Position numbers and translations under genes: made by a program. From positions 1 to 46,372 of the IMG/VR virus record IMGVR_UViG_3300025652_008385: a stretch of DNA of 46,372 nucleotides, one strand, 5' to 3'. The notes under the pieces were generated by a model. It had not been told where the DNA came from. It did no database searches and saw only the letters and a program-made list of their open reading frames with translations. Position 1 is the stretch's first letter; each line of letters opens with the position of its first letter. The stretch is from a virus. Shown here one piece after another: positions 30,279 through 46,240 of the stretch.

Positions 30279-30300
30279 ATGTTTTTGGTTTTAAAAACAT
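30279..30300. repeat. Inverted repeat upstream of the radical SAM gene
   Basis: ATGTTTTT and AAAAACAT with a six-base loop, in the 82-base gap between the HAD gene and the radical SAM gene. No U-tract, so it is more likely an operator or weak hairpin than a terminator. A TATACT box (30269-30274) follows on the minus strand without a good -35. Confidence 0.4.
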
Positions 30301-30311
30301 AATTAGACACT

Positions 30312-31132: not shown

Positions 31133-31160
31133 TTTATGTATTCCTCATCAAATAAATAGT

Positions 31161-33865: not shown

Positions 33866-33956
33866 TAGCTTTCCATTCACAATAGTCACACGACATTTCG
33901 TCGGTTAAAGGCATGCCACAATTGGGACATTTCTTAGATTTTACCATAGATAACAT
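33855..33956 (-). CDS. 33-residue zinc-ribbon protein (short gene)
   Basis: MVKSKKCPNCGMPLTDEMS is followed by CDYCEWKANAK, two CxxC knuckles 13 residues apart that can bind one zinc. The ATG at 33956 is preceded by AAGGA nine bases upstream. It lies between two longer genes and slightly overlaps the start of the large unknown gene. May mediate protein or nucleic-acid contact. Confidence 0.65.
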   Translation of the reverse strand: MLSMVKSKKCPNCGMPLTDEMSCDYCEWKANAK

Positions 33957-33961
33957 GTTTT

Positions 33962-34918
33962 TTATTCCTTCATTGATTTTGAGCCGCGGCATTTCCACTT
34001 TTTACGGGATAATGCGTTAGCACATGGGGGATTTTTACACTTTTTAATCTTCGCGGAGCGTGCACAGTACGCATCACCCTTAGCTGTACCGGGTCTGATG
34101 CGGTCTCCGCCACCTTTTGCTTGTCCTTTTTGCCCAAATGAGCGACATTTGCCGTCTACACGCTTAGCAAAGCGTTTTCCTTTGGAGGGTTTACAAGGTT
34201 TTTTAGCTTTTTCAGCTAAAACTTGAACCAATTCGTCTTCAATCATCATTCGTAAAGACTCTTTCTTAGAATTACCCCAGTTTTCGGCTCCAGCCTTGCG
34301 ACATTGAACCAACCTACCAGATGCATAGGCAGAAGGCCACTCTTTTGAGTTCGCTTTTACTTTGTGGTAGCATGCGTCTTTTTCGCCTTCTTCTTCATCA
34401 AGAGTTTTAAGGTCAGTATTTTCTTGCACACCATATGTTTTACAAGGATCTTGGCCACAGCCACAGTTCTTTTTGCCCTCTTTTAACTCATCATCGTCTG
34501 TCTCGTCAAGAATCTTCTGTATTCTGGCAGCTTGACTGGCATGCATCTTTGACGCGCCCTCAAGTTCTCCTACGATTGTCTTGAGTTCTTCTTCGTGTTC
34601 TTTCGAGTGGGACTCGGCTATAACAGCTTCTAACTCTTCACGGATAATCTTCTCTAAATTCATGTACAATTCCTCATTTTTAAATCCTTTGCAAGCACTT
34701 GGGGTAGGTCTACATCGTGGTTTTTTTGATCTTGTCTCACCGTCAGAGCGCCCACACGCTTTACATTTACCATCACGACAAGTATTACAGTCAATCCAAC
34801 CACTTTTTTTGCCAGGGGCGCCCTTGCGTTTAAACCAATCACCCAAATTCTTCTCTGAACTTGGTTTTTTAGTTAATTTGCGTTTCTTTTCGTCCAGTGG
34901 ACCATACAAATCATTCAT
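33962..34918 (-). CDS. Cysteine-rich basic phage protein
   Basis: 318 residues in three parts. N-terminal GAPGKKSGWIDCNTCRDGK then CKACGRSDGE and RCRPTPSACK is a cysteine-rich lysine/glycine segment recurrent in T4-like marine phages, from memory. The central part starts YMNLEKIIREELEAVIAES and has an acidic helix. The C-terminal part (GDAYCARSAKIKKCKNPP, NALSRKKWKCRGSKS) is another recurrent cysteine block. It could be a head-internal or DNA-associated protein; function unknown. Confidence 0.68.
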   Translation of the reverse strand: MNDLYGPLDEKKRKLTKKPSSEKNLGDWFKRKGAPGKKSGWIDCNTCRDGKCKACGRSDGETRSKKPRCRPTPSACKGFKNEELYMNLEKIIREELEAVIAESHSKEHEEELKTIVGELEGASKMHASQAARIQKILDETDDDELKEGKKNCGCGQDPCKTYGVQENTDLKTLDEEEGEKDACYHKVKANSKEWPSAYASGRLVQCRKAGAENWGNSKKESLRMMIEDELVQVLAEKAKKPCKPSKGKRFAKRVDGKCRSFGQKGQAKGGGDRIRPGTAKGDAYCARSAKIKKCKNPPCANALSRKKWKCRGSKSMKE

Positions 34919-35357
34919 TTTTAGACATTTCCAAAGCTTTCTCCAATAAATAGATCGGTATTTCGCTATTAGCTATGTCTTTTATCTCTTCAATTGTCGC
35001 CCACATGTAACTATCGTGTTCAATTTCGCCTGTAATCGGATTAGGGATACTAACATTTACCTCACCCCTCCACCTGTTTGCTAAAAAATAATATTTCTGT
35101 GGCTTGGGTTCACCTAGGTATATTAAATCTTCCACAAAACACTCTAAGTTGGTCTCTTCTTTTAGTTCTCTAATCGCTCCTGACTCAACACTACGGTCTT
35201 TTTCGTCTATATGGCCCCCAGGTATGGTCCATTGCCCACCCCGTTTATCAATATTCGACCGTCGAATGATTAAAAATCTATTTTTATCAATACAGATAAC
35301 AATTCCAGCATCCCGCTCCCTGTTTGAGGCAGTATATGTATCCCATTTCGAAGTCAT
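34911..35357 (-). CDS. Nudix hydrolase
   Basis: 148 residues. GGQWTIPGGHIDEKDRSVES followed by GAIRELKEETNL is the Nudix box with an extra residue in its first half; the metal-binding glutamates of RELKEET are present. GIVICIDKNRFLIIRRSN is the typical first strand. Cleaves a nucleoside diphosphate linked to another moiety. The ATG at 35357 overlaps the preceding stop codon (ATGA) and is preferred over an upstream in-frame ATG. Confidence 0.88.
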   Translation of the reverse strand: MTSKWDTYTASNRERDAGIVICIDKNRFLIIRRSNIDKRGGQWTIPGGHIDEKDRSVESGAIRELKEETNLECFVEDLIYLGEPKPQKYYFLANRWRGEVNVSIPNPITGEIEHDSYMWATIEEIKDIANSEIPIYLLEKALEMSKNE

Positions 35358-36106
35358 CTGCAGGCTTTTGGTAGTCTTGAGGGGAATTTTGATACCATGC
35401 TGCATGCATTTTTAAGCACCACTCTCATCGAAACACGTTGAATTGGAACAACCCATACTAAATTTTCTTGAACTTGCATTCCTGGATAATATTCGACGTC
35501 AACACCATATAAAATGCCTACGATTTCTCCACTTGGAGAGTAAACCACAGAGCCGGAACAGCCGAACCATCCGTAAGTGTTCAATATGATTTGTAGCCCT
35601 ACCCCCTGTTTATCTTCATAACCAGCGACGGTACCACCGAAAGTCATAAGCTGATGGCTAGAAGGGTATCCAGAATAAGTGATATCAGTACCCACCTCCG
35701 CAATTCGTACTTGGGGATCCCATTTCATGGGAGTGATTGTTGTAAATTTCTTTTCTATCAACAGCACAGCCATATCCGCATCGGCGTCGGACCATACCAA
35801 AGTGGCTAAACGGTTTTCACTTCCTTTCAATACTTGATATTTGGTTCCGCGGACACCATCACTAACATGCTGAGCCGTAAAAATAAAATACATGTCCTTA
35901 TATTGTATATAAGAGCCGCTTCCGTGCCCGCCACCTGGTGTCATAACTCTGACAGAGGCATCTCGGACTCTTTTTTGAATCATACTCATGGCAGAGTTAA
36001 TCTGCTCAATCGGCATCGGTATTATGGCATCAGAGTCTGTGCTGGCACTTGCACTAATATTAAAATTTAACAAAAATGCCGCTATTAAAAGTAGAAACCT
36101 CATCAT
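35354..36106 (-). CDS. Exported trypsin-like serine protease
   Basis: 250 residues. MMRFLLLIAAFLLNFNISAS is a signal peptide. The chymotrypsin-fold triad is visible: TAQHVSDG (His), DADMAVLLIE (Asp) and GWFGCSGSVVYSPSG (Ser in GCSGS). No PDZ domain. It would act in the periplasm or outside the cell. GGAGGG lies before the ATG at 36106. Its neighbours are a Nudix enzyme and a VWA protein; targets unknown. Confidence 0.85.
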   Translation of the reverse strand: MMRFLLLIAAFLLNFNISASASTDSDAIIPMPIEQINSAMSMIQKRVRDASVRVMTPGGGHGSGSYIQYKDMYFIFTAQHVSDGVRGTKYQVLKGSENRLATLVWSDADADMAVLLIEKKFTTITPMKWDPQVRIAEVGTDITYSGYPSSHQLMTFGGTVAGYEDKQGVGLQIILNTYGWFGCSGSVVYSPSGEIVGILYGVDVEYYPGMQVQENLVWVVPIQRVSMRVVLKNACSMVSKFPSRLPKACR

Positions 36107-36126
36107 TATCCCTCCAAGGATTAAAT

Positions 36127-37134
36127 TCAACTACCTGTATCTGTCTCGATATATCTATAGCCAACCTCAACTAGTTGTCCGGTAGTTGGAATAACTGTAA
36201 AGTTAACTGTGTTGTCGGTAGCAGAATACGTCCACCCGTAGGCGCTCAAGGAACCGTCTATAAAGACTCTGATTGAGTCGACTACAGGGGCGTGAGTTAA
36301 ACCAATACTTTCATAAGGTTCAATTGAGTGAGTAGCATCGGTGACACCTGGCGACCAATCGTCATCACATATATCGATGACAACTCCGCCAAGCATCGAT
36401 GTAGCCTCCATGTATCTATCACCAACATCAATTGGATTTGGTGCTATCGTACACATGGAAGCGCCTGCAGGCTGATTAACAATACTGGCCATGAATACGG
36501 CGCCACCACGTTGCATGGAATACCAACTCAAGAAATCTGATACAACTGGATACTCAACGTAACTTTGCTCTTCTTCGTCTGAGACAAAGACGACTAGCAA
36601 TCCAGCATCGGGCCGCATCCATGTTAGAGAATAGGGATTATGCATAATGTATTCATAGACTGAATTAAATCCTTCCTCCCACGGCCCCATAGGTAAAGTG
36701 TTGAGCATGCTTTCCGCATCCGCTATGTCATCACCGGGAACCAAAGGAAACTCTGTACTTGCAATTGAGTCTGTTGGATCAGCACTTATAATTACTAATC
36801 TCCAATCAGATGCTGGTAGCGCTAACATCATTGCTTCAATACCGGCGAGCAATGCGTCGTCGAATCGATTCATAGAACCAGATTTATCGATAACCCATAA
36901 GATATCAATTCCATCGATGGTGCCAACTTGGGTAAAAGAATCTACCCAAACATCACCATTCTCCGCCGGCACTTCTACTTCAACATACACCGGAACCTCA
37001 ACTTCTTGGATTACCGTTACCGGATCAGAGGGTACTTCAACATAGACAGTCTCTGTTTCTCCGGGCTTTATAATGGCGTAGTCGGGTTGCAGGCAGGCTA
37101 TAGCGCACAACATCATAAGTAAAAACGTCTTCAT
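36127..37134 (-). CDS. Exported VWA-domain protein, possible lipoprotein
   Basis: 335 residues. MKTFLLMMLCAIACLQPDYA is a signal sequence; Cys14 could be lipidated although the lipobox (AIAC) is poor. A Val/Pro/Glu-rich stalk (EVPVYVEVEVP) leads into a von Willebrand A domain whose MIDAS starts IDILWVIDKSGSMNRF; a later DEEEQSYVEYP is an acidic site. It probably binds a protein or surface ligand through a metal. Its style is bacterial rather than phage-like. Confidence 0.8.
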   Translation of the reverse strand: MKTFLLMMLCAIACLQPDYAIIKPGETETVYVEVPSDPVTVIQEVEVPVYVEVEVPAENGDVWVDSFTQVGTIDGIDILWVIDKSGSMNRFDDALLAGIEAMMLALPASDWRLVIISADPTDSIASTEFPLVPGDDIADAESMLNTLPMGPWEEGFNSVYEYIMHNPYSLTWMRPDAGLLVVFVSDEEEQSYVEYPVVSDFLSWYSMQRGGAVFMASIVNQPAGASMCTIAPNPIDVGDRYMEATSMLGGVVIDICDDDWSPGVTDATHSIEPYESIGLTHAPVVDSIRVFIDGSLSAYGWTYSATDNTVNFTVIPTTGQLVEVGYRYIETDTGS

Positions 37135-37272
37135 TACAAGGATAAATATACGCCAAGATTTATTTCAGCCATAAATAACATTATTTTGCACCCGGGGCAC
37201 CCCCAATGCGGCCAACGTAAAGTCGAAATTTTTTTTATTTTTCTTTTCTACTTTTCCCTAAAATTTTTCCTC

Positions 37273-37548
37273 TTATTCAGGGTCATTCGTTCTAAATAAA
37301 TCATACAAACCGACCACAATCGATATCTTAAGGCCTTCTTCTTCCATTTGTATAGCAACAGGCGCATAACTATCATAGCCGGTCTCCTTGGTCCAGTGGA
37401 TGGTCCAGAAATACACATCATCGTCTTCTATACTAATGCGCCGAACATGGTCGACCAAGATTCCGACATTGCCACAGCCAGTATCGACGATTAAATCGCC
37501 AATAGTTAACTTCATTTGTTCACATTCTTCGCGTAGAGTGTTTGCCAT
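37273..37548 (-). CDS. VGDLV-family small protein
   Basis: 91 residues (or 80 from the ATG at 37515). LTIGDLIVDTGCGNVGILVD, an acidic turn, then YFWTIHWTKETGYDS match the family scaffold: strand with [IV]GDL[IV], Gly-Ile-Leu/Ile strand, and a strand ending in W. No catalytic residues evident. Seven bases after the next family member (37555-37797), so the two are co-transcribed. Confidence 0.65.
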   Translation of the reverse strand: MANTLREECEQMKLTIGDLIVDTGCGNVGILVDHVRRISIEDDDVYFWTIHWTKETGYDSYAPVAIQMEEEGLKISIVVGLYDLFRTNDPE

Positions 37549-37554
37549 GCATCT

Positions 37555-37797
37555 CTAAGTATCACTAAGGATGATTATAATGTCCGCTTTAATCAGATTA
37601 ATCAAGCCCGATTCGGATATGCGTTCCATGCCAGGCCTTGACCACACGATTTCCCAGATCCATACTTTGAAGTGGCCGTGGGTACCGTGCACGTATGACG
37701 GATAGTACATTCCCTCATAGGACCAGAATCGTCGAATGAGTATACCAATAGATTTGGTATCGACGTCATACAAGAATATACCGGGCTTAAGGTCCAC
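37555..37797 (-). CDS. Small protein related to the VGDLV family
   Basis: 80 residues with GTG start: MDLKPGIFLYDVDTKSIGIL, an insert with GTHGHFKVW, then WIWEIVWSRPGMERISES. The order of a Gly-containing first strand, GIL strand and W-rich strand follows the family although the VGDLV box has diverged to KPGIFLY. Confidence 0.55.
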   Translation of the reverse strand: MDLKPGIFLYDVDTKSIGILIRRFWSYEGMYYPSYVHGTHGHFKVWIWEIVWSRPGMERISESGLINLIKADIIIILSDT

Positions 37798-37813
37798 ACC
37801 TTAACTAGGCGGC

Positions 37814-38062
37814 TTATAGTTTTAACCAGCCCGGGCGACGATTAGCGCAATCCTTAATCACTTGGCCAGGTTCTTTCGCGGCCGCGGTGCACTGGGTTAC
37901 TGGGGCATATACGGTATTCACGTCGACAGTGTCACCCACCTTTACCAGATCCTGTGTGGTAATAGAGGTCATCTTGTCTCGCGCTTTTAGCTTTTCAGTA
38001 TCAGCGGTACTCACAGCAGTAATGCCCAATAAGAGCATGCCTATTATATTTGCTTTAATCAT
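37814..38062 (-). CDS. Small secreted protein
   Basis: 82 residues. MIKANIIGMLLLGITAVSTA is a signal peptide. The mature part has two cysteines, TQCTAAAKEPG and IKDCANRR, which could form a disulfide in the periplasm. No family recognised. Confidence 0.62.
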   Translation of the reverse strand: MIKANIIGMLLLGITAVSTADTEKLKARDKMTSITTQDLVKVGDTVDVNTVYAPVTQCTAAAKEPGQVIKDCANRRPGWLKL

Positions 38063-38105
38063 TTAGGTTAACCTTTTCACTCAGTGAGTGTTTAAATAGT
38101 GTACT

Positions 38106-38351
38106 CTATACTTTAATACGGTCTATTATGTATGGATGGTGAACCGACATATCTTTGTATAGCTTCTTCAAGATTTTCTTGGATATATCGCCGATATCGT
38201 CCTTGATACCTTTCGACTTGATCGCTTTTGCTACTTCGTCCTCTACCATCGCCTTTAGTTCTTTCTTAATCATGCGCTCGATCTCATTACGATCGGATTT
38301 AGTTATCTCTTCGACGATTATTGCGCGCAATCTTTGTTTACTGATTTTCAT
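38106..38351 (-). CDS. Unknown 81-residue helical protein
   Basis: MKISKQRLRAIIVEEITKSD with an amphipathic N-terminal helix, then ERMIKKELKAMVEDEVAKAI and a Lys-rich C-terminal helix. The start resembles the IRRLIR/IIREEL helices of other proteins in the window, common in large phages. Function unknown. Confidence 0.6.
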   Translation of the reverse strand: MKISKQRLRAIIVEEITKSDRNEIERMIKKELKAMVEDEVAKAIKSKGIKDDIGDISKKILKKLYKDMSVHHPYIIDRIKV

Positions 38352-38380
38352 GGTTTAATTTCTACCTGCTGTAATTAGGT

Positions 38381-38680
38381 TCATTTTCCGGAAGATGCCA
38401 ATTTTAGATGCGTTCTTGGGATTGTCTGTATAATTCCTACGCGTAGCCACATTATACGGTACACTATCGGCCTTGTACGGGATGCTAACGACTTTAAATG
38501 ACGTCGAACGTCGTTAAGGTCTCCCTCAAAGTTAACGTCTACCTCCAATATAATACCGAAGTCTCCATAATCGATTGGGTATATAATGTGTATGTGCGGC
38601 GTTGGGTTAAACGGGGTGTACTGCACCAAGTCCCCAACCTGCAAATCATTATCGACACATAGCGCCTCAACTTTTCTCAT
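38381..38680 (-). CDS. VGDLV-family small protein
   Basis: 99 residues. LQVGDLVQYTPFNPTPH is the defining strand, GDFGIILEVDVNFEG the second, IVYRIMWLRVG the W strand, and IPRTHLKLA the end strand. The longest free-standing member, with an extra helical insert. Function unknown. Confidence 0.65.
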   Translation of the reverse strand: MRKVEALCVDNDLQVGDLVQYTPFNPTPHIHIIYPIDYGDFGIILEVDVNFEGDLNDVRRHLKSLASRTRPIVYRIMWLRVGIIQTIPRTHLKLASSGK

Positions 38681-38707
38681 GTAATATATATGCGCCGTGT
38701 GCTTAAA

Positions 38708-38947
38708 TTAAAACGTATACTTTCTCATCTTTGATATTGTGTGTACCCATATCCTTTCCTTTACTCCGTCATGTGGGTACCTAACCCAATAGATGCGCAT
38801 CATGTTCATGGAAGGGTACACTTCGTCGTCGTCCTTGTCATACAAGTCAATGATGATGGCTATGCCCCCGTGGCATGCGCATGTGACCAAGTCTCCAACC
38901 TTGAACGGATGCTCGGGTGCGTGCTTGAATAAATCGCTATAGCTCAC
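38708..38947 (-). CDS. VGDLV-family small protein
   Basis: 79 residues with GTG start. PFKVGDLVTCACHGGIAIII is the first half, then an Asp-rich loop (LYDKDDDEVYPS) and MMRIYWVRYPHDGVKERIW. It is the last gene before the non-coding stretch at 38948-39258 and could be read from promoter elements there. Confidence 0.65.
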   Translation of the reverse strand: MSYSDLFKHAPEHPFKVGDLVTCACHGGIAIIIDLYDKDDDEVYPSMNMMRIYWVRYPHDGVKERIWVHTISKMRKYTF

Positions 38948-39258
38948 GTCTTAACTATGCTGGTGGCTATATTCTCCGGGTTTATATTTGGGAAATTTTT
39001 GGGCGCGATCGAAAAGGTGCTTAGCCGGCATGTCAGGCATATGTCAAGTAATGGCACATACATCCCGGGGAGGGGGGTAGGGGGGTGGTCCCTCCTGTCA
39101 AGTACTTGTCAAATCATTTGTCAGGTTTGTTTGCATATATATGACACACGCAGTCTTTAATCACACTACTGTATACGTATAAGATGATAGGCGTATAGCA
39201 TGCAAGAATAGTTCCCTTTGTAAGTATCTTTTTTAGTAGTAGTCTCGCGGACATTCTA
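38948..39258 (-). other. Non-coding stretch with TGACA repeats and a C-rich run
   Basis: No supported gene. On the minus strand it holds two clusters of TGACA elements: CTGACA, TTGACA and TTGACA at about 39100-39123, and TTGACA then CTGACA 11 bases apart at about 39029-39045. A tract of C runs (39066-39086) follows the first cluster. Good -10 boxes at the right distance are not evident, so this may be a degenerate or differently used version of the promoter modules seen to the right. Confidence 0.5.
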
Positions 39259-39615
39259 TCAGGCTTCTGCAATCTCTGACGATACAAACAGTTCTGTATT
39301 ATTCATATAGTTAATACTTCTTATTGTCTCGGCATTCATCTGTAGCCATCGCGCACCTGCCGCAGTTACTTGCACACGTCTGCCGAAGTCGCTGACAGTC
39401 TCACCGTTCTCTATCAATCCATATAGGATAAGCATATCAATCGCTGCTGTGGCATCGGCCGCAAACATATCGCACTTGAGTGCTAGCTCTTCTACTGACC
39501 AGTCTGTGAATGTTGGTAGCCAGCCTTCAATATAGTTTAATATACTTATCTCGGCCTTATCTAACTTAACGCTGATGCTGCCGTCAGCAATTGTAAATAT
39601 TGTGTTAGAATCCAT
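39259..39615 (-). CDS. Winged-helix DNA-binding protein candidate
   Basis: 118 residues from the ATG at 39615 (GGAAGG upstream). ISILNYIEGWLPTFTDWSVE, ELALKCDMFAADATAAIDML and ILYGLIENGETVSDFGRRVQ form the helix-helix-helix-wing order of a winged HTH, with VTAAGARWLQ as following strand and helix. Two palindromes lie directly upstream (39635-39650 and 39672-39687), which suits autoregulation. Could regulate the small-gene array. Confidence 0.65.
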   Translation of the reverse strand: MDSNTIFTIADGSISVKLDKAEISILNYIEGWLPTFTDWSVEELALKCDMFAADATAAIDMLILYGLIENGETVSDFGRRVQVTAAGARWLQMNAETIRSINYMNNTELFVSSEIAEA

Positions 39616-39634
39616 ATATAGTGTGTCCTTCCTT

Positions 39635-39650
39635 AGATCCACCGGGATCT
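39635..39650. repeat. Inverted repeat AGATCC-N4-GGATCT
   Basis: Perfect six-base arms around a four-base centre, 20 bases before the winged-helix gene. Candidate operator. Confidence 0.5.
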
Positions 39651-39671
39651 GTTAAAGATTTGACTAGGCAG

Positions 39672-39687
39672 ACACTACCGGTAGTGT
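39672..39687. repeat. Perfect palindrome ACACTACC/GGTAGTGT
   Basis: 16-base palindrome without spacer between the stop of the 28-residue peptide gene and the winged-helix gene. Operator candidate; too short and lacking a U-tract for a terminator. Confidence 0.5.
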
Positions 39688-39700
39688 GTCGTATGTAGTG

Positions 39701-39787
39701 TCATACCGCCATAAGCAGGTAAAGCATGGCCGTCCACATGACAGCGCCAATCGCATCGTATACTTTCATCTCGGTTGTGTAGGTCAT
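39701..39787 (-). CDS. 28-residue membrane peptide with its own promoter
   Basis: MTYTTEMKVYDAIGAVMWTA begins a single hydrophobic helix, and the peptide ends MLYLLMAV. The ATG is preceded by GGAAGGAG and a consensus tripartite promoter (39812-39866), so a translated peptide is likely. A longer in-frame reading would run through the promoter. May act on the host membrane. Confidence 0.72.
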   Translation of the reverse strand: MTYTTEMKVYDAIGAVMWTAMLYLLMAV

Positions 39788-39811
39788 TGTCTTTCTCCTT
39801 CCTATGCTTAT

Positions 39812-39866
39812 AATATAGCACGATGGGGTGTGGTTGTCAAGCTGTCGCATGTCAAATAAATGTGAG
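39812..39866 (-). promoter_or_regulatory. Tripartite TGAC promoter module
   Basis: Minus strand: CTCACA (39861-39866), 11 bases on TTGACA (39850-39855), 15 bases on TTGACA (39835-39840) as -35, 17-base spacer, TATATT (39812-39817). The distal element is the most diverged of the eight modules. Drives the 28-residue membrane peptide. Confidence 0.8.
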
Positions 39867-40089
39867 GGGCGTAAGTGGTTGGAATCGTTGGTGATACACG
39901 GTGTTGTAAGTCCTTGGATACATTGAGGATTGCTGTCACATGCACTCACACCTTGACAAATGGCGATAGAGTGACTATGTACTAAGATCCAACCACATAC
40001 AGAACACATTTAACAACACAATATAATACATTCAATCACACTCTCCCACATTACTAAGCAATTGTCTGACACCATAAGCCCCTTTATAC
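39867..40089. other. Gene-free stretch upstream of a promoter module
   Basis: Between the promoter module at 39812-39866 and the VGDLV gene ending at 40090. I see no convincing gene, hairpin or promoter on either strand; a plus-strand TTGACA has no acceptable -10. Confidence 0.4.
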
Positions 40090-40266
40090 CTATACTACCA
40101 CTTTACTATACAATCCTTCTACTACAGGTACAGCTATTAACTGTAAACACTTAAGAGAGTTATTATATACTGTATAGTTATTCTCATCCTTATCCACTAC
40201 AATACATACAGCTTTGGGTTTAGATGATACTTGTTTTCTTTTTACTAACTCTCCAGCCTTAAACAT
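40090..40266 (-). CDS. VGDLV-family small protein (short gene)
   Basis: 58 residues. MFKAGELVKRKQVSSKPKAV is the first strand, CIVVDKDENNYTVYNN the hairpin, LQLIAVPVVEGLYSKVVV the end. GGAG is ten bases before the ATG, which overlaps the stop of the preceding gene by eight bases. The plan matches the other members, with AGELV in place of VGDLV. Confidence 0.68.
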   Translation of the reverse strand: MFKAGELVKRKQVSSKPKAVCIVVDKDENNYTVYNNSLKCLQLIAVPVVEGLYSKVVV

Positions 40267-40567
40267 TCTTGCTCTCCAGTTCTTCGGCTTGTTCAGTCAT
40301 CTTGGCCAAGTCGGAGGCCGTTAGCTTTCTTTCTTTATGCCTCTTGTTCTGTTCTCGGATCAGTTTATTGTATCGCTTCTTTTCGTACTTGTTGACGTGC
40401 AGGTTTTCTATTCCTATCGCTCTCATCTTCTGGGCCATTCTTCTTACATTGGCTTCGGAGCAACCGGCTGCATCACATCGAGAGTCGGCGCGTGTCAGCA
40501 CTACCTCTTTGAAGTCAAGGCGGCCGTCAATCATCTTTAGAATTGTCTGGGATACATAATGTTTCAT
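40259..40567 (-). CDS. Unknown basic 102-residue protein
   Basis: MKHYVSQTILKMIDGRLDFK, a CDAAGCSEANVRRMAQKMRA segment that looks like a helix-turn-helix, and a very basic helix (KYEKKRYNKLIREQNKRHKE). Could bind nucleic acid. No ribosome binding site is obvious. Function unknown. Confidence 0.6.
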   Translation of the reverse strand: MKHYVSQTILKMIDGRLDFKEVVLTRADSRCDAAGCSEANVRRMAQKMRAIGIENLHVNKYEKKRYNKLIREQNKRHKERKLTASDLAKMTEQAEELESKNV

Positions 40568-40587
40568 AATAAATGGAGAGTCTTTAT

Positions 40588-40653
40588 TTAGGGTCGCGCT
40601 CTACTCGACTTAGTTGCTCTGGCTTCTATATTTATAAGGCTGGCGGCTCTCAT
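40588..40653 (-). CDS. Possible 21-residue peptide
   Basis: MRAASLINIEARATKSSRAR-P, starting one base after the stop of the preceding shifted frame. Weak ribosome site. Kept only as a possibility. Confidence 0.25.
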   Translation of the reverse strand: MRAASLINIEARATKSSRARP

Positions 40654-40654
40654 G

Positions 40655-40814
40655 TTATTCCAGCAGGTTTATCATGAGGGTGGCTAATCCTCTTATAGCC
40701 GTTACTGTAGGATCTTCATTATCTTTAACCTCAAAGGTTAGGGTTGGACATCTTACTCTGCGACATATACAAGCCCGTCGCAGCACTCGGCACTATGGAG
40801 TTGGGGGTTTTCAT
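40655..40814 (-). pseudogene. Two overlapping frames joined at CTT TGA: frameshifted gene or programmed shift
   Basis: Frame 0 starts MKTPNSIVPSAATGLYMSQS at 40814 and stops at CTT-TGA (40731-40736). The +1 frame continues directly with EVKDNEDPTVTAIRGLATLM and ends INLLE (stop 40655-40657), which looks more protein-like than frame 0. CTT TGA is the slip site of release-factor-2 genes, but no upstream Shine-Dalgarno stimulator is seen. A perfect hairpin, TAACCT and AGGTTA with a three-base loop (40726-40740), spans the site. Could also be a sequencing error or non-coding. Confidence 0.35.
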
Positions 40815-40862
40815 TTTCTTTACTTTACCTCTCGCGCTTTGCGCTTTACGGGTTAGGTGTGA

Positions 40863-40952
40863 TTATAGGATAGCTTCGCCGATTGCGATACCAAGCCCAA
40901 AGGCAAGGAGCAAGAGCGGACTAAAAAAGAGGATACCAAGGTAATCGTTCAT
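40863..40952 (-). CDS. 29-residue membrane peptide (short gene)
   Basis: MNDYLGILFFSPLLLLAFGL and GIAIGEAIL, one transmembrane helix. The ATG directly follows the upstream stop (TAAATG), with GAAGG eight bases before it. Co-transcribed with the 40953-41333 gene from the module at 41362. Confidence 0.6.
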   Translation of the reverse strand: MNDYLGILFFSPLLLLAFGLGIAIGEAIL

Positions 40953-41333
40953 TTAGATGCCTTCACCAGCAGCGAGCGCAGCAAGATCAGCCTTCTCTTC
41001 ATCGCTAAGGTGTTCCTTGGCTTTGTTGCGGAGGCTGGCCGCGCTCATCTTGGTGGGTACTTTATACTCACCGTTGCAGCCATCAGCAAAGCCTTGTGCG
41101 CCTTCCTGCGTCGGGTAGTCGATGATCGCTTGCTTGCCCTGAGTTGTGGAGTTGCGGAAGACGCGCCACATTTTAGGACCAACTTGCTCGACGGTCCAGC
41201 CGGTGAGTTGCTTCCGCGTTGGCGGTGCTGGCTGTGGCTTGTACGCTTTCTTGCGTGAAGACCCGATCTCAATGTTACAGATCATTGGGTTAGGTTTGAA
41301 GGTCAGGCTGTCGTTTGTTTTTGCTTGAGGCAT
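40953..41333 (-). CDS. Unknown 126-residue protein
   Basis: The N-terminal 45 residues are Pro/Lys-rich (KKAYKPQPAPPTRKQL). GWTVEQVGPKMWRVFRNSTT then IIDYPTQEGAQGFADG form a small alpha/beta unit, and the C-terminus is helical (AKEHLSDEEKADLAALAAGE). No family recognised. GGAG before the ATG and a promoter module upstream support it. Confidence 0.72.
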   Translation of the reverse strand: MPQAKTNDSLTFKPNPMICNIEIGSSRKKAYKPQPAPPTRKQLTGWTVEQVGPKMWRVFRNSTTQGKQAIIDYPTQEGAQGFADGCNGEYKVPTKMSAASLRNKAKEHLSDEEKADLAALAAGEGI

Positions 41334-41361
41334 TGATATATCTCCTTACTTGATATACTAT

Positions 41362-41416
41362 ATTATACACTAAAAATGGGGGAAAGTCAACAACAAAGTT
41401 GTCAAGAGAATGTCAG
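41362..41416 (-). promoter_or_regulatory. Tripartite TGAC promoter module
   Basis: Minus strand: CTGACA (41411-41416), TTGACA (41400-41405), TTGACT as -35 (41385-41390), 17-base spacer, TATAAT (41362-41367). Steps of 11 and 15 bases. Drives the 40953-41333 gene and probably the 29-residue peptide. Confidence 0.85.
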
Positions 41417-41419
41417 GGA

Positions 41420-41602
41420 CTAGTCAACAGACTCGACACAGCACGTGCTTTCATCACCTACATTTTCGATAATGTCACCGTTCCAATCCTCATCCTCTTC
41501 GATCTCTTCAACAAGTTGCTGCTGAAACTCAATCAGGCGATCGAGCAGTTCCGAAGCATCGGCGTTGCGGGCGGTAATATCAAAAGTCAGTCGGTATGTC
41601 AT
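41420..41602 (-). CDS. Unknown acidic 60-residue protein
   Basis: MTYRLTFDITARNADASELL, a helix (DRLIEFQQQLVEEIEED) and an acidic tail ending STCCVESVD. AAGGA before the ATG. Sole gene of its promoter module; its stop lies four bases before the distal element of the next module. Function unknown; acidic DNA-mimic or inhibitor roles are possible but unsupported. Confidence 0.7.
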   Translation of the reverse strand: MTYRLTFDITARNADASELLDRLIEFQQQLVEEIEEDEDWNGDIIENVGDESTCCVESVD

Positions 41603-41629
41603 AGTGTTCTTTCCTTGTTTGGTATAACC

Positions 41630-41684
41630 ATTATACCAGAAATAGAGGGCTAAGTCAACAACTAAGTTGTCAAGAGAATGTCAG
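41630..41684 (-). promoter_or_regulatory. Tripartite TGAC promoter module
   Basis: Minus strand: CTGACA (41679-41684), TTGACA (41668-41673), TTGACT as -35 (41653-41658), 17-base spacer, TATAAT (41630-41635). The distal element supplies the stop codon of the 41681-41905 gene. Confidence 0.85.
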
Positions 41685-41905
41685 TCGTTGCAGCATGGTG
41701 GATGCCCCCAGTTTGCCACTTGCCAGTCGCTAATGCTACCGGAGTAATGGAGCGCATCAACGAAGTTGCTCCAAGCCTCGGAGCGGGCAACGGTGTCAGG
41801 GTGGCCCATGAGTTGCTCGCCCTCTTGGAACATTGGAAGGATAAGATCAATAAACTGCTCGCGGGCAGTCTCCCAAAGAGTAACGGTGTCGAGTTGTGAA
41901 GCCAT
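41681..41905 (-). CDS. Unknown 74-residue protein
   Basis: MASQLDTVTLWETAREQFID, then LILPMFQEGEQLMGHPDTVA, then a Trp-rich C-terminus (SDWQVANWGHPPCCND). GGAG nine bases upstream. Its TGA is part of the CTGACA of the downstream promoter module. No family recognised. Confidence 0.72.
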   Translation of the reverse strand: MASQLDTVTLWETAREQFIDLILPMFQEGEQLMGHPDTVARSEAWSNFVDALHYSGSISDWQVANWGHPPCCND

Positions 41906-41933
41906 AGAATAATCTCCTTCTTTCTATACATAT

Positions 41934-41988
41934 AATATAACATAGCGGAGGGGTAAAAGCAAGGAAGATCGTGTCAGGGAAATGTCAA
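41934..41988 (-). promoter_or_regulatory. Tripartite TGAC promoter module
   Basis: Minus strand: TTGACA (41983-41988), CTGACA (41972-41977), TTGCTT as -35 (41957-41962), 17-base spacer, TATATT (41934-41939), then ATGTATAGAAAGAAGGAG. Here the -35 box is the weak one. The distal element contains the stop codon of the 41985-42161 gene. Confidence 0.83.
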
Positions 41989-42161
41989 GAGATCACCGTC
42001 AAGTTTCGTTCACTAACGATCTCAGTTTTACCGTCTGCCCACAGGATCGACCACCACACGGTTTTCCACTTGGCTTTCTCGGCATTTTCGACAACAATAC
42101 CCAAACCAGCGCGTTCGTGTGGAAGACCGCGCCTATACTTTACCAGATCACCCGCTCTCAT
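41985..42161 (-). CDS. VGDLV-family small protein (short gene)
   Basis: 58 residues: MRAGDLVKYRRGLPHERAGL, GIVVENAEKAKWKTVW, WSILWADGKTEIVSERNL. All family landmarks are present: AGDLV, G-I-V-V, W-x-x-[IL]-[LF]-W-A-D-G-K and a final polar strand. ATG overlaps the stop of the upstream gene (ATGA). Last gene of a three-gene operon. Confidence 0.75.
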   Translation of the reverse strand: MRAGDLVKYRRGLPHERAGLGIVVENAEKAKWKTVWWSILWADGKTEIVSERNLTVIS

Positions 42162-42649
42162 TCTGCCACCTCAAGATCACGTTCTGGGAATGTCGGGTAT
42201 CCGAATCTTTTACTGTTTGAGTTGTCGCCGACCCAAGCGATGCGAGCAAACCCGCAGCCGCCTTCTGCCATCACAAGCCCAACCTTGCCGGCGTAGCCTT
42301 GACGGGTTGCGCGCTTGTTGGTTTTACCTCTCACCAGTTGACCAACCTTAAACTTTGGTGGCTTCGGAAGTAGAGCCTCGATCATCTGGCTCGCGTTGTC
42401 ACGGAATGAGCCAGCAAAATAGTCAGACTGCATATCCGAGTAGTCATCACCGCGGCGAACGTGGAAGTTACAGGCGTCAGCCTCAAGTTGAGCAGCCGTA
42501 TCGCTTGCCATCGCTCCGTTGGCCAAGAATGAACCAACGTAACCGTTATGCTGGAAGGCCCAGCGCGTTCCGTTATACTCTACATCAATATCAATACCTT
42601 GCTTCTTGAAGTGAGTTTTGATCTTCTTGATTACTGCTTTAACTTTCAT
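42158..42649 (-). CDS. Two-part protein with C-terminal VGDLV-family domain
   Basis: 163 residues from the ATG at 42649, which overlaps the stop of the preceding gene. The N-terminal 95 residues (MKVKAVIKKIKTHFKKQGID, WAFQHNGYVGSFLANG, ACNFHVRRGDDYSDMQ) are a separate domain of unknown type. From about residue 98, KFKVGQLVRGKTNKRATRQG, KVGLVMAEGG, FARIAWVGDNSN is a family barrel. The only member fused to another domain. Confidence 0.72.
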   Translation of the reverse strand: MKVKAVIKKIKTHFKKQGIDIDVEYNGTRWAFQHNGYVGSFLANGAMASDTAAQLEADACNFHVRRGDDYSDMQSDYFAGSFRDNASQMIEALLPKPPKFKVGQLVRGKTNKRATRQGYAGKVGLVMAEGGCGFARIAWVGDNSNSKRFGYPTFPERDLEVAE

Positions 42650-42819
42650 GCTACCACCTTCAAGTCTACGACTGAGCAAAATCCGCTCTTTTGAGTTGAA
42701 GCCCAGAACACACGGGCAATCTTGCCGTCTGCCATTAGGCTGAGAACCAATCCAAGATTTGAGTTGTTATACCCTTGGATAAATCCCACGTTTGTTACCA
42801 TGCTTCCGACTTCAATCAT
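42646..42819 (-). CDS. VGDLV-family small protein (short gene)
   Basis: 57 residues: MIEVGSMVTNVGFIQGYNNS, LGLVLSLMADGKIARVFWAS, GFCSVVDLKVVA. EVGSMV takes the place of VGDLV; the G-L-V-L strand and the ARVFW strand follow. Excellent GGAGAG site and the module at 42845 make expression likely. First gene of a three-gene operon made entirely of family members. Confidence 0.72.
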   Translation of the reverse strand: MIEVGSMVTNVGFIQGYNNSNLGLVLSLMADGKIARVFWASTQKSGFCSVVDLKVVA

Positions 42820-42844
42820 AGATTTCTCTCCTTTCTATATATAT

Positions 42845-42898
42845 AATATAACCCGCTGAGAGGTAAATGCAAGGCTATTTGTGTCAAGGGAATGTCAG
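42845..42898 (-). promoter_or_regulatory. Tripartite TGAC promoter module
   Basis: Minus strand: CTGACA (42893-42898), TTGACA (42882-42887), TTGCAT as -35 (42867-42872), 16-base spacer, TATATT (42845-42850), followed by ATATATATAGAAAGGAG. The distal element provides the TGA stop of the 42895-43068 gene. Confidence 0.85.
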
Positions 42899-43068
42899 TA
42901 AACGAGTTGAATGTGTTCTTTTCTTATAGTCTCGCGCTTCCCGTCAGCGGCCCACTCGACGATCCAATAGTCCGTTGCAAATGCAGATCCGATAATGATC
43001 CCGACCGGTCCCCAGCCTTTACTTGGCGCGCCATAGTGTGATCTTCGGACCAAGTTACCGACTTTCAT
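42895..43068 (-). CDS. VGDLV-family small protein
   Basis: 57 residues: MKVGNLVRRSHYGAPSKGWG, PVGIIIGSAFATDYWIVEWA, ADGKRETIRKEHIQLVY. Archetypal member. The ATG at 43068 with GGTGAG just upstream is preferred to an earlier in-frame ATG lying inside the preceding gene. Last gene of its operon; stop codon is within the next promoter module. Confidence 0.78.
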   Translation of the reverse strand: MKVGNLVRRSHYGAPSKGWGPVGIIIGSAFATDYWIVEWAADGKRETIRKEHIQLVY

Positions 43069-43072
43069 GCGC

Positions 43073-43453
43073 TCACCAATTTTTAGGGTCATTGGCGTCC
43101 CATACATCGTGTGTCTGAGTCTTTGAGAGGCGTTCGTCCTTTACTTTCAAGTTAAAGCTCCGGCGTGCTGCTGCTCGGCTATGCATTTTTGCCTGCTCTC
43201 GCGCGTCCATTCCGCGCTTAACAAAATCGTCCTCCGCTACCATAAATGTCGTTGGTGCGGCCCAACCGTCATCACGGCGATGCAGTTGTTCAAGAAGATC
43301 ATCGGAAAGCTCTCCAAGCTCTTGGAGTAGATCAGCAGTCGAGCCGGTTACATCGTGGCGACGTTTGACGGTTTCCATATTGGTGCTGATACATTCGTGA
43401 AGCAGATCGATTTCTCGCTCTGTTAAATTGATTGTTAATACTTTGTCAGACAT
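43073..43453 (-). CDS. Unknown 126-residue protein
   Basis: MSDKVLTINLTEREIDLLHE, then a helical middle (DLLQELGELSDDLLEQLHRR) and a basic C-terminal region (AREQAKMHSRAAARRSFNLK). GGAG ten bases before the ATG. Looks like an all-helical protein; no family recognised. Confidence 0.72.
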   Translation of the reverse strand: MSDKVLTINLTEREIDLLHECISTNMETVKRRHDVTGSTADLLQELGELSDDLLEQLHRRDDGWAAPTTFMVAEDDFVKRGMDAREQAKMHSRAAARRSFNLKVKDERLSKTQTHDVWDANDPKNW

Positions 43454-43567
43454 TTATACTCCACATGTGCAGTTGGCCCATTGAAAGGCGAGGAAGATAA
43501 GACCAGACCAGCAGGTCAGATCAGCGATAATAAGAGCGGCCATCATGCCGTTGCGGTTTTGAAACAT
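43454..43567 (-). CDS. 37-residue membrane peptide (short gene)
   Basis: MFQNRNGMMAALIIADLTCW, SGLIFLAFQWANCTCGV: one transmembrane helix and a cysteine-containing tail. GGAG and the module at 43593 lie directly upstream; the stop abuts the next gene's ATG (TAAATG). Probably a host-membrane-acting early peptide; unproven. Confidence 0.7.
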   Translation of the reverse strand: MFQNRNGMMAALIIADLTCWSGLIFLAFQWANCTCGV

Positions 43568-43592
43568 TTTGTTTTCTCCTTTCTATACATAT

Positions 43593-43647
43593 AATATAAC
43601 GCCGAAAGCGGTGATAGTCAAGGTTTAAGTTGTCAAGGACTTGTCAA
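43593..43647 (-). promoter_or_regulatory. Tripartite TGAC promoter module
   Basis: Minus strand: TTGACA (43642-43647), TTGACA (43631-43636), TTGACT as -35 (43616-43621), 17-base spacer, TATATT (43593-43598). The two distal elements are translated, coding the last residues (VDKSLTT) of the 43625-43825 protein. Confidence 0.85.
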
Positions 43648-43825
43648 CGACTGATAGGTGCTGACTACATTCGGTTAGTGGCTCTGGTTCGTTCGTCCAC
43701 AAAACTTTAACGTCACGATTGCCGGTAAACTTTCCAGTCTCAATAATCAGACCAATGTGGACAGATTGACCCTTGCTCCATCGCGGACGTTGATACCAAT
43801 ATGTAACCAGATCACCGACTTGCAT
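43625..43825 (-). CDS. VGDLV-family small protein
   Basis: 66 residues: MQVGDLVTYWYQRPRWSKGQ, SVHIGLIIETGKFTGNRDVK, VLWTNEPEPLTECSQHLSVV. The ATG overlaps the stop region of the SWIM gene; longer readings would lie entirely within that gene. Last gene of its operon. The C-terminal VDKSLTT is encoded by promoter elements. Confidence 0.77.
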   Translation of the reverse strand: MQVGDLVTYWYQRPRWSKGQSVHIGLIIETGKFTGNRDVKVLWTNEPEPLTECSQHLSVVDKSLTT

Positions 43826-44129
43826 TTTTCTGAGCCTCAACATGTTTGCATTTACGTCGCCAACCGAAACCGGGGCAAGAGCATGTCCACGTGCCTCCGT
43901 TGTCGCTAACGGTGTAAGTGTTCCCGCGACTGCCTTGAACCTCATAGGAGACAACGCCAGCCGGTTGTAGGGGTGCTTCGCGCTGCTCCACGATCATATA
44001 CTTGCCAACTTCGTCCAAAGTCAGAGTATCGGGTACCTCCACCCAATGTTGACCAGACACAGCCCACTTTTGACCAGCGCGGTCAGTGTACAGCATTGGA
44101 TTCATGCTAACGACAATGGGTAGATCCAT
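43812..44129 (-). CDS. SWIM zinc-finger protein
   Basis: 105 residues. The C-terminal GTWTCSCPGFGWRRKCKHVE is a SWIM motif, CxC-(n)-CxH, binding one zinc and typically mediating DNA or protein contact. The N-terminal part includes GQKWAVSGQHWVEVPDTL and a short beta unit (YEVQGSRGNTYTVSDNG). GAGG nine bases before the ATG. Could be a host-takeover regulator; target unknown. Confidence 0.83.
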   Translation of the reverse strand: MDLPIVVSMNPMLYTDRAGQKWAVSGQHWVEVPDTLTLDEVGKYMIVEQREAPLQPAGVVSYEVQGSRGNTYTVSDNGGTWTCSCPGFGWRRKCKHVEAQKNASR

Positions 44130-44130
44130 T

Positions 44131-44325
44131 CTATGCCTCTGCGGGTACGAGTGTGGCCACGCTCAAGGTGGTATAGGTTTCGACTTCTATCGGAGTAATT
44201 GCCGGATCGTCAATCGTTGCCTGCATCATCAGGGCTGTGATAATCTGCTCACATCCGAAGGTTGTGCGCTCCAGAGGAGTTAGGCGAGAGTCGTCTTGAG
44301 TACGAAAAAGTGGAATGGATTGCAT
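44131..44325 (-). CDS. Unknown 64-residue protein
   Basis: MQSIPLFRTQDDSRLTPLER, then TFGCEQIITALMMQATIDDP and an acidic, Thr-rich C-terminus. GGAG upstream, promoter module at 44351. The order TPLERxxFxxEQII recalls a small helical bundle. No family recognised. Confidence 0.7.
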   Translation of the reverse strand: MQSIPLFRTQDDSRLTPLERTTFGCEQIITALMMQATIDDPAITPIEVETYTTLSVATLVPAEA

Positions 44326-44350
44326 AGATTTTTCTCCTTTCTATACATAT

Positions 44351-44404
44351 AATATAACCCCCTGACACCAAACGTCAAGGAAGATTTTGTTAAGAGGATG
44401 TCAG
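44351..44404 (-). promoter_or_regulatory. Tripartite TGAC promoter module
   Basis: Minus strand: CTGACA (44399-44404), TTAACA (44388-44393), TTGACG as -35 (44373-44378), 16-base spacer, TATATT (44351-44356), then ATGTATAGAAAGGAG. The middle element contains the TAA stop of the 44390-44593 gene. Confidence 0.85.
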
Positions 44405-44593
44405 GTGTTCTATGAACATCTCATGGAACTTTAAGCGGACCTCAGTGCCAAGAAAAACAATTGTATATGCCTTGGTGTAGGATTTTGAAGTCTCACCTAT
44501 CTCTATCACCATACCAGTGCGATGTACAGGAAGGCCGGCCTGATGTGTCCCATCTTTGATCTTTATAAGATCCCCAACCTTAAACTTTGGCAT
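44390..44593 (-). CDS. VGDLV-family small protein
   Basis: 67 residues from the ATG at 44593 that overlaps the preceding stop (TGATG): MPKFKVGDLIKIKDGTHQAG, HRTGMVIEIGETSKSYTKAY, TIVFLGTEVRLKFHEMFIEH. Complete scaffold with VGDLI, G-M-V-I and the final helix-like end. Terminal LTSS is encoded by the promoter elements. Confidence 0.78.
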   Translation of the reverse strand: MPKFKVGDLIKIKDGTHQAGLPVHRTGMVIEIGETSKSYTKAYTIVFLGTEVRLKFHEMFIEHLTSS

Positions 44594-44919
44594 CAGAAGG
44601 GCTTGCTCTCGCTCATTGGTGAACACTCCCACACCAACGGATTCATGATCACCGGGTTGCCAGTTGCGTACTTGGCGAGGTTCACATGACAAGAAGTTGT
44701 CATAGAATGAAAGCCTTTGGCTGGTGCGGTGAAGTCGGCGATGACGTAAACTCCTGCCGGGGTCCGCTCTCCGATCTTTAAGTCATAGCTATATAGCTCG
44801 GCGCTTCCATTTGGATACGATACACTACTCAAAGAATACCTGTGATTACGCGCACTTAGGCCATTCTGCCATGCTTTGATGACACCATCGTTATCTAGTC
44901 TTGGTCCTGTGATTAGCAT
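44593..44919 (-). CDS. Unknown 108-residue protein
   Basis: MLITGPRLDNDGVIKAWQNG, SARNHRYSLSSVSYPNGSAE, LYSYDLKIGERTPAGVYVIA, then SCHVNLAKYATGNPVIMN. Beta-rich, possibly a small barrel. AGGA before the ATG. It follows the DUF2201-type gene by 7 bases. Confidence 0.72.
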   Translation of the reverse strand: MLITGPRLDNDGVIKAWQNGLSARNHRYSLSSVSYPNGSAELYSYDLKIGERTPAGVYVIADFTAPAKGFHSMTTSCHVNLAKYATGNPVIMNPLVWECSPMSESKPF

Positions 44920-44926
44920 TTAATTC

Positions 44927-46165
44927 CTATGCGTCAATGGCGACGATTCGCTCGTTAGTAGAGAAGTAGGGGCGCGCTGCATAGTTCTTAGTCGTCATCC
45001 ACATACGTTGGCACTTAGAAGGCACCGGCTTCGGGGCCATCAAATCAGTCAAGACGATGTGACCGTCAAAGTCGCGCTCATTCACATACTTGGTTGGAGC
45101 GTTGAAGCACGTACCACCAGTCAAGACGCGCTCTGTTTTCTTGGTTTGGCCTTTCTTCCAAGTGTATACCTTATCTTTGGCTACCTCGGTGTCGAAGGGG
45201 ACAACTGTGAACTCTGCAATCTCAGCTAACTTGTTAAGCTCGGAGAAAAACGCGGCAAGCATCCCATCATCAACTGATCCAGACTGGTCGATAGAGATGG
45301 CGATCTTGGCTTGGCGACGGACACGCTTGCCCGGATGCATCCGAGGGTAACGCTTGTTAAGACGGCGCGGTGTACTGCGCTTATCGGCGCGCTGGCTTGT
45401 TTTGACGAAGTATCGAAGAACTTTACGCCAGTCAACCTTAGTTTGAATACGTTCAAGAATATCCTGACGCATGGACGAGGATACTGTTCCCCAGTTGCGT
45501 GACTTCTCGGCTTCTTCTGCTGCCTTCTTAATTGCATCCTTCATGCGCTCGCTAGCAATCTCTTGAGTTGTACCGCTGACTTCACCGAATCCCTCATGAT
45601 CATCAAGCGAATCCATGTCACCAAAGGGATCACCAGAACCCTGCTCACCGGATCCGTCGCCTTCCTGTTCTTTCTGATCTTCTCCCATCTTCTTGAGTGC
45701 TTCAAGGTACCACTCGTATGACTTGAACGAAGGGAGATCCTTAAAGATACCTTCGCCCGGAATACAAGCCTTCATAGCCTCCTTGCCAATGACCGGTCCG
45801 GGGTTGGACTCACCCGGCAACATATTGGAAATGTGGCAGTTGATCGACAGGTCCATAGCAATGTTGTCGATGCGCTTGAGGCCATCAGCAGGCTTACGGC
45901 CGGTCACATGCTCAAAGATTAGGTGGTAAAACTCATGCATCAACACGCCCTGCTTGTGATTGTCTTCAAGCTGCTCAAAGAACTCAGGATTGTACATAAG
46001 TTCAAACTGAGCAGTCTCAGGGTTGACGCGCACACCGGCAGTCGGGATAGCAGTTGTAGCGATCTTATCAATCCGGCGCGAGAGCGCGGCGAAGAACGGC
46101 TCGCGCATAAGCAGGCGAGCGGTGTGCATGTTGAGATTGAAGGGCTTTTTGGTATCGTCAGTCAT
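44927..46165 (-). CDS. VWA-like metallopeptidase (DUF2201 type)
   Basis: 412 residues. The N-terminal domain has VLMHEFYHLIFEHVTG (H77-E78-x2-H81), a putative zinc peptidase core. A linker rich in Gly, Asp and Ser follows (residues 160-195). The C-terminal part contains KIAISIDQSGSVDDGMLAAF, a VWA-like MIDAS, and HIVLTDLMAPKP. In bacteria such proteins are paired with MoxR-type AAA ATPases; a partner may lie beyond the right edge. It is the largest product of the small-gene region, first gene of its operon. Confidence 0.87.
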   Translation of the reverse strand: MTDDTKKPFNLNMHTARLLMREPFFAALSRRIDKIATTAIPTAGVRVNPETAQFELMYNPEFFEQLEDNHKQGVLMHEFYHLIFEHVTGRKPADGLKRIDNIAMDLSINCHISNMLPGESNPGPVIGKEAMKACIPGEGIFKDLPSFKSYEWYLEALKKMGEDQKEQEGDGSGEQGSGDPFGDMDSLDDHEGFGEVSGTTQEIASERMKDAIKKAAEEAEKSRNWGTVSSSMRQDILERIQTKVDWRKVLRYFVKTSQRADKRSTPRRLNKRYPRMHPGKRVRRQAKIAISIDQSGSVDDGMLAAFFSELNKLAEIAEFTVVPFDTEVAKDKVYTWKKGQTKKTERVLTGGTCFNAPTKYVNERDFDGHIVLTDLMAPKPVPSKCQRMWMTTKNYAARPYFSTNERIVAIDA

Positions 46166-46186
46166 TGTTCTTTTCCTTACTCTTAT

Positions 46187-46240
46187 AATATAACGTGTTG
46201 GCGCGACTTAGCAAGCGATATTGTGTCAAGCAAATGTCAA
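46187..46240 (-). promoter_or_regulatory. Tripartite TGAC promoter module
   Basis: Minus strand: TTGACA (46235-46240), TTGACA (46224-46229), TTGCTA as -35 (46209-46214), 16-base spacer, TATATT (46187-46192). The distal element contains the stop codon of the partial gene at 46237. Confidence 0.83.

Follow-up and report, generated by a model that had tools for sequence, protein, structure and literature searches.

The DNA analyzed here, which we call the window, is a 46,372-nt fragment of the IMG/VR virus record IMGVR_UViG_3300025652_008385 (positions 1 to 46,372). Between positions 39812 and 46240 its minus strand carries eight promoter modules of a common design, with coordinates exactly as listed in a preliminary description of this DNA. 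Each module begins with two upstream boxes. The first is TTGACA, CTGACA or CTCACA, and the second (TTGACA, CTGACA or TTAACA) follows 11 bp after it. The -35 hexamer (TTGACA, TTGACT, TTGACG, TTGCAT, TTGCTT or TTGCTA) stands 15 bp after the second box, and a spacer of 16 or 17 bp separates it from a -10 element that reads TATATT in six modules and TATAAT in two. A Shine-Dalgarno sequence and a start codon then follow in every case.

Module 1 (46187..46240, minus strand, as all the others) joins two TTGACA boxes (46240-46235 and 46229-46224) to the -35 TTGCTA (46214-46209) and, 16 bp further, to the -10 TATATT (46192-46187). It drives the gene for a metallopeptidase and VWA protein of 412 amino acids (aa) (44927..46165, minus strand; PHROG 1314), and the same promoter is found in 17 orthologues. 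The homologue in the relative G001 contains DUF2201_N and DUF2201, and a MoxR-type AAA gene adjoins the metallopeptidase/VWA gene in relatives. Module 2 (44351..44404) is composed of CTGACA (44404-44399), TTAACA (44393-44388), the -35 TTGACG (44378-44373), a 16-bp spacer and the -10 TATATT (44356-44351), upstream of a 64-aa open reading frame (ORF) starting at 44325. In module 3 (43593..43647), both boxes are TTGACA (43647-43642 and 43636-43631), and the -35 TTGACT (43621-43616) is followed after 17 bp by TATATT (43598-43593) and by a short ORF with its start at 43567. The boxes CTGACA (42898-42893) and TTGACA (42887-42882) of module 4 (42845..42898) precede TTGCAT (42872-42867) and, after 16 bp, TATATT (42850-42845), with a 57-aa ORF from 42819. 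Module 5 (41934..41988) has TTGACA (41988-41983), CTGACA (41977-41972), TTGCTT (41962-41957), 17 bp and TATATT (41939-41934) before an ORF starting at 41905. The two modules with a TATAAT both combine CTGACA, TTGACA and TTGACT with a 17-bp spacer: module 6 (41630..41684; boxes at 41684-41679 and 41673-41668, -35 at 41658-41653, -10 at 41635-41630) stands before a 60-aa ORF starting at 41602, and module 7 (41362..41427; boxes at 41416-41411 and 41405-41400, -35 at 41390-41385, -10 at 41367-41362) before a 126-aa ORF starting at 41333. Module 7 has an additional box, TTGACT, 11 bp upstream at 41427. Module 8 (39812..39866) runs from CTCACA (39866-39861) and TTGACA (39855-39850) through the -35 TTGACA (39840-39835) and 17 bp to TATATT (39817-39812), ahead of a short ORF starting at 39787.

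Written as a regular expression, the pattern of the preliminary description has eight matches in the window, all on the minus strand, against zero expected from 60 first-order Markov simulations of the same composition. The exact pair TGACA-N6-TGACA is likewise confined to the minus strand, where it is present eight times (0.08 expected per strand). A chance origin of the pattern is rejected both by simulation and by the blind anchoring of promoters described below. The eight exact pairs and the eight modules are different sets: six modules hold an exact pair, those at 44403 and 39865 have a pair with one mismatch, and the exact pairs at 39111 and 39046 come without a promoter. The downstream sequence ATGTATAGAAAGGAG, previously called usual, has a close match in only three of the eight modules and a loose match in five.

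Two discrete classes of promoters

Blind-anchored promoters fall into two discrete classes, having either a near-perfect pair (class I) or a background score (class II). The score is the match to TGACA+TGACA at -26/-15 over ten positions. With the anchor TTGAC-N17/18-TATAWT, we collected 167 promoters from ten records; 56 score 9-10 out of ten, one scores 7, and 110 score 6 or less. Anchoring on the -10 and the Shine-Dalgarno sequence alone, again in ten records, yielded 204 promoters, among which 77 score 9-10, none 8, one 7, and the rest 6 or less. The modules had been proposed to be a class separate from the promoters elsewhere, and this is supported, as those promoters lack the upstream pair.

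The geometry of class I is rigid. In a pooled set of 776 promoters, TGACA is found at -25 in 368 and at -14 in 390 and almost nowhere else, although these proportions are biased because some of the contigs had been retrieved with the pair pattern itself. The pair spacing is 11 in the 347 class I promoters of this set and never 10 or 12, while the step from the second box to the -35 is 15 in 334 of them and 14 in 13. With the former fixed and the latter either 15 or 14, the pair behaves as a rigid unit for which a shift of one base relative to the core promoter is possible. The consensus of the box is CYTGACA-TTYN-CTTGACA-ACTT; in each 11-bp repeat seven bases are well conserved and four are looser. 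The half-sites (C-Y-TGACA-T-T-Y-N, then C-T-TGACA-A-C-T-T) are arranged head-to-tail at about -61 and -50. The 9 bp between the box and the -35 are A/T-leaning.

The core promoter appears to be of the sigma70 type, judging by its sequence elements, a -35 and a TATAAT-like -10 at 16-18 bp. The two classes differ in it: A stands at the sixth -35 position in 12 of 56 class I promoters versus 85 of 110 class II promoters (p = 5e-12), and a TGn extended -10 is present in 62% of class I versus 31% of class II. Class II promoters, located elsewhere in the genomes, have TTGACA with A/T-rich sequence upstream. The earlier remark that the upstream copies outlast the -35 box is borne out by the 64 promoters with a perfect pair in the ten records, 25 of which have a -35 with at least two mismatches. 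With its 347 class I promoters, the pooled set provides a rigid and well-sampled natural dataset on how an activator box would compensate for a poor -35.

Conservation in a far-T4-like lineage

To call the modules an array in the window is an understatement, since the class extends over the whole lineage and is restricted to a single block of the genome. The conservation of the upstream elements in related genomes, on which the preliminary description had staked its proposal, was checked in 30 relatives of the VWA gene, and the elements proved to be deeply conserved. Relatives at 73-88% identity have a module at or near the same place, with variable spacer and surrounding sequence. Those at 62% identity and below mostly have an ordinary promoter, with the exception of L035, which has a module. 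Genomes carry about 4-15 copies, all on the transcribed strand and in one small-gene block, which was located at 30.6-37.8 kb plus 45.7 kb in G001, 95.0-107.5 kb in G017, 83.9-101.6 kb in G018, 185.0-196.6 kb in G019, and 152.8-165.7 kb in G023. No module is found on the opposite strand in seven module-positive records. The ORFs of the block are small in six of seven module-positive genomes (median 73-95 aa versus 183-209 aa outside), the exception being G015, whose block spans contig ends. A search of IMG/VR for the pair returned at least 120 stretches with spacing 11 and 13 each with spacings 10 and 12.

An expanded family of small paralogues, which start like M-K-V-G-D-L-V, contain a GxVxxxxx...VxW pattern and are probably SH3-like, occupies 37273-45000 of the window and 26952-46195 of G001; a simple motif count finds at most about ten members in a genome, many of them inside the module block. 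A variant group represented by G013 (L027) has an 11/14 geometry and GATAAT as the -10 in most promoters. In the module-free L030 and L031, an inverted repeat, TTGTCAAG-N-CTTGACAA, lies upstream of the VWA gene and overlaps the likely -35.

The downstream edge of the block in the window is marked by a conserved non-coding element (38960..39150, minus strand), where the exact pairs at 39111 and 39046, with no -10, are arranged around a C-tract (ACCCCCCTACCCCCC) and the sequence GGATGTATGTG. This element of about 200 bp is present in all ten aligned records, for example at 28700-29100 in G001, 10100-10450 in G006, 6650-7000 in G009, 94350-94700 in G017, and 83200-83560 in G018. Its consensus includes the pieces ACCCCCCTACCCCC, GAATGTATGTC, TTGACATA..CCTGACAGGCCGGCTAAG and TTTTCGATACCGC, with the motif GGCCGGCTAAG...TTTTCGATACCGC, and in G018 it has promoterless box pairs in both orientations. 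The G-tracts complementary to its C-tracts could form a quadruplex, and as a guess the element might be a replication origin. In the module-free G005, two non-coding regions (175400-175900 and 6400-6700) hold several ACTTTACATAACT copies among TGACA pairs in both orientations, perhaps this genome's own version of the element.

The window is a piece of a marine phage of about 190 kb that belongs to the T4 superfamily and is "far-T4"-like. Viral contigs that carry relatives of its metallopeptidase/VWA gene reach 192 kb in length. One relative, G001, is near-complete at 187 kb and encodes a T4-type major capsid protein, a large terminase (TerL) and a PolIII-alpha (DnaE-type) DNA polymerase. The nearest matches of the capsid protein and TerL are from an uncultured phage and from two cultured ones, Flavobacterium phage immuto and Microcystis phage Mel-JY01. 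These two, the nearest cultured phages, share less than 50% identity in both proteins, and the TGACA box pair was found in neither of them, so that this far-T4-like lineage is one without a close cultured member. DnaE proteins of module-positive phages are about 70-86% identical to that of G001 and form a single group in the DnaE tree (support 93/94). The window also encodes a transfer-messenger RNA (tmRNA; 21072-21407) with the tag ANNNNHFESVRLAA and three tRNAs (17217-17995). In a Neomarinimicrobiota metagenome-assembled genome (MAG), one contig of which belongs to this phage, another contig gives a second tmRNA match of 332 bp.

A 2015 survey of far-T4 phages did not detect the T4 transcription-control genes and noted that transcription patterns may differ (PMC4360716). 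We found no earlier description of a tandem-box promoter class in the literature. Regulation in far-T4-like marine phages is essentially undescribed, and the class offers a concrete set of promoter rules with which a widespread uncultured lineage can be searched.

Candidate readers of the box and alternative explanations

The upstream copies look like a protein-binding site and not like spare -35 boxes, a view well supported by their near-consensus sequence, the exact 11-bp step and the promoterless pairs. This part of the preliminary description stands; the support does not extend to the particular kinds of protein or modified polymerase it had named. With about an even chance of being right, we read the modules as a single class of sigma70-type phage promoters, specific to this lineage and equipped with an activator box whose reader is probably phage-encoded. 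A pair on one helical face at -61/-50, together with a degenerate -35 and a frequent extended -10, has the layout of an activator site. The protein would bind as a tandem dimer, contacting the two half-sites from the same side of the helix, and would recruit the host RNA polymerase, via the C-terminal domain of the polymerase alpha subunit (alpha-CTD) or via sigma region 4, to a core promoter whose -35 is degenerate and whose -10 is often extended (TGn). The small-gene block would thereby be switched on together; its many small ORFs, frequent promoters and MoxR-type/VWA pair suggest an early host-takeover region. If so, the class marks the genes that are probably first in infection and focuses the question of early control on a protein binding CYTGACA-N4-CTTGACA.

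Several observations weigh against this reading. Activation, as opposed to repression, is suggested by the box position (-61 to -45) and the weak -35s alone, and 37 of the 347 class I promoters have a perfect -35 TTGACA. The TerL tree, which is less resolved, does not recover the module-positive group, and two changes are needed. Among the candidates compared, no phage DNA-binding-like gene tracks the module. A sigma-region-4-like protein was attractive because sigma region 4 reads TTGACA, but it is absent from three module-positive genomes, and two genomes without the module encode it. A 109-aa ribbon-helix-helix (RHH)-like protein occurs in nearly all long records, module-free ones included, and genomes without the module likewise encode relatives of two conserved proteins of the block, the zinc-knuckle protein and the 208-aa protein.

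Two other candidates were rejected: a SWIM-finger protein (window 43812-44129), found in nine records only, and a MerR/excisionase-like ORF in L219, which is not conserved. No recognised transcription factor is listed for G018 in a Pfam scan of 146 proteins and a PHROG scan of 63 of them, where one result list comprises 25 of 59 families. The sigma-region-4-like protein (79-87 aa; G001 63736-63987, also in G002, G010, G015, G017, G018, G019 and G022) has a Cys-rich N-terminus followed by nothing but a sigma70 region 4.2-like helix-turn-helix. Its gene is adjoined by that of the RHH-like protein, with a C-terminus ending like IFDIIEKEHPEL. The AlphaFold2 model of the latter (predicted local distance difference test, pLDDT, 84) has CopG as its best Foldseek match (E = 2.2, not significant), and one member of the family matches NikA-like at 1e-4.

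A tentative alternative is that the reader belongs to the host, as a winged-helix response regulator of the OmpR/PhoB/CtrA type that the phage would borrow for early transcription, perhaps tied to nutrient state. The architecture is exactly the one that defines the PHO box, two direct 11-nt repeats with seven conserved and four loose bases (PMC4415409), and the borrowing of such regulators by phages has precedents in CtrA (alphaproteobacterial phages, PMC9437464) and PhoB (cyanophages, PMC10976474). TGTCA, the core of the E. coli box CTGTCAT, is present on the opposite strand, and the takeover-like block suggests immediate-early use. Since PF00486 (Trans_reg_C; OmpR/PhoB-type) was found in none of 14 phage records (12 of 14 control genomes were positive), an OmpR-type reader would be the host's. 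A host regulon should, however, show the box, and in 257 billion bases (one genome per species for 84,980 bacterial and archaeal species) the strict module has two matches. One of them is the phage itself, which had been binned into the Neomarinimicrobiota MAG, and the second, apparently not from a phage, may be due to chance. Outside this MAG, whose one binned phage contig is the sole pointer to Marinimicrobia as a possible host, the relaxed module was found in 0 of 198 Marinimicrobia genomes and the pair CTTGACA-N4-CTTGACA in 0 of 119, so that no host regulon carrying the box was found in the genomes scanned. Being near-absent from the scanned bacterial genomes, the box looks phage-specific. 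Furthermore, known PHO boxes differ in their flanking bases, and the orientation of the box is opposite to that in E. coli promoters.

We consider it unlikely that the pairs are operators or roadblocks of a phage repressor closing the block later in infection, in the manner of mycobacteriophage L5 stoperators, even though the sites are numerous, asymmetric, in one orientation relative to transcription and in some cases off promoters, as are L5 repressor sites (PMC9283540), and the 7-mer TGTCAAG equals the end of the L5 site GGTGGMTGTCAAG (string in PMC3029335). Operators usually overlap the core promoter, whereas the pair ends about 10 bp before the -35; the sites are almost all promoter-bound and not genome-wide; the -35 is weaker in boxed promoters, as activation predicts; and nothing suggests lysogeny in a phage of the T4 superfamily. 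That no dedicated protein is involved, the RNA polymerase itself contacting the extra TTGACA copies either through the alpha-CTD in the fashion of an UP element or as spare targets of sigma region 4, appears improbable. TTGACA does resemble a -35, the boxes lie where the alpha-CTD binds, and the 9 bp before the -35 are A/T-leaning. Yet a fixed TGACA with 7+4 periodicity is unlike the A-tracts of UP elements, which occur in the other promoter class, and the 15 bp from the second box to the -35 are no multiple of a helical turn. The presence of the box in the promoterless element likewise argues for a protein and not for a polymerase contact. A bolder version of the phage-encoded activator, which we regard as speculative and rather doubtful, is a protein unlike any known family and as old as the lineage that would control the whole takeover block and also bind the quadruplex-capable element, a possible origin. 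If true, early transcription and the onset of replication would be coupled through a single protein.

Comparison with known systems

The modules share features with several known systems. Like T4 middle promoters (MotA, sigma appropriation), they combine a phage-specific box with a host-type -10 in a class common to many genes. The MotA box, however, replaces the -35 at 12 +/- 1 bp from the -10 (PMC2988021), in contrast to a double box of unrelated sequence at about -61/-50 with the -35 retained. T4 early promoters (UP/-35/TGn/-10) are similarly many, often one per small gene, and mostly have an extended -10, but the modules have a TGACA pair and not A-tracts or UP elements, as well as a degenerate -35. 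The operators and stoperators of L5 are also asymmetric, oriented and repeated, and have the 7-mer TGTCAAG in common with the modules. They are, however, single 13-bp sites for a monomeric repressor, distributed over promoters and short intergenic spaces genome-wide, whereas the phage sites are paired, promoter-tied and in one block, with no GGTGG in the consensus.

The closest parallels in architecture are the boxes of the OmpR/PhoB family (PhoB, B. subtilis PhoP, and CtrA with TTAA-N7-TTAA), which also present head-to-tail half-sites of 11-bp period at sigma70-type promoters with a poor -35. The TGACA pair has the two 11-nt direct repeats of PHO-box-like operators and, on its other strand, the TGTCA core of the half-site CTGTCAT with different flanks. 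Unlike these boxes, the phage modules keep a separate -35 15 bp downstream, the regulator was not found in the phage, and the box is absent from the bacterial genomes scanned apart from the two matches above. Phages that borrow CtrA or PhoB (LPEG phages, cyanophages) likewise have repeats of 11-bp period upstream of phage genes, clustered in a non-coding gap. Their boxes match a host regulon, whereas here no such regulon was found and the geometry is far more rigid. The promoter class described here adds a new variant to the known classes of phage promoters.

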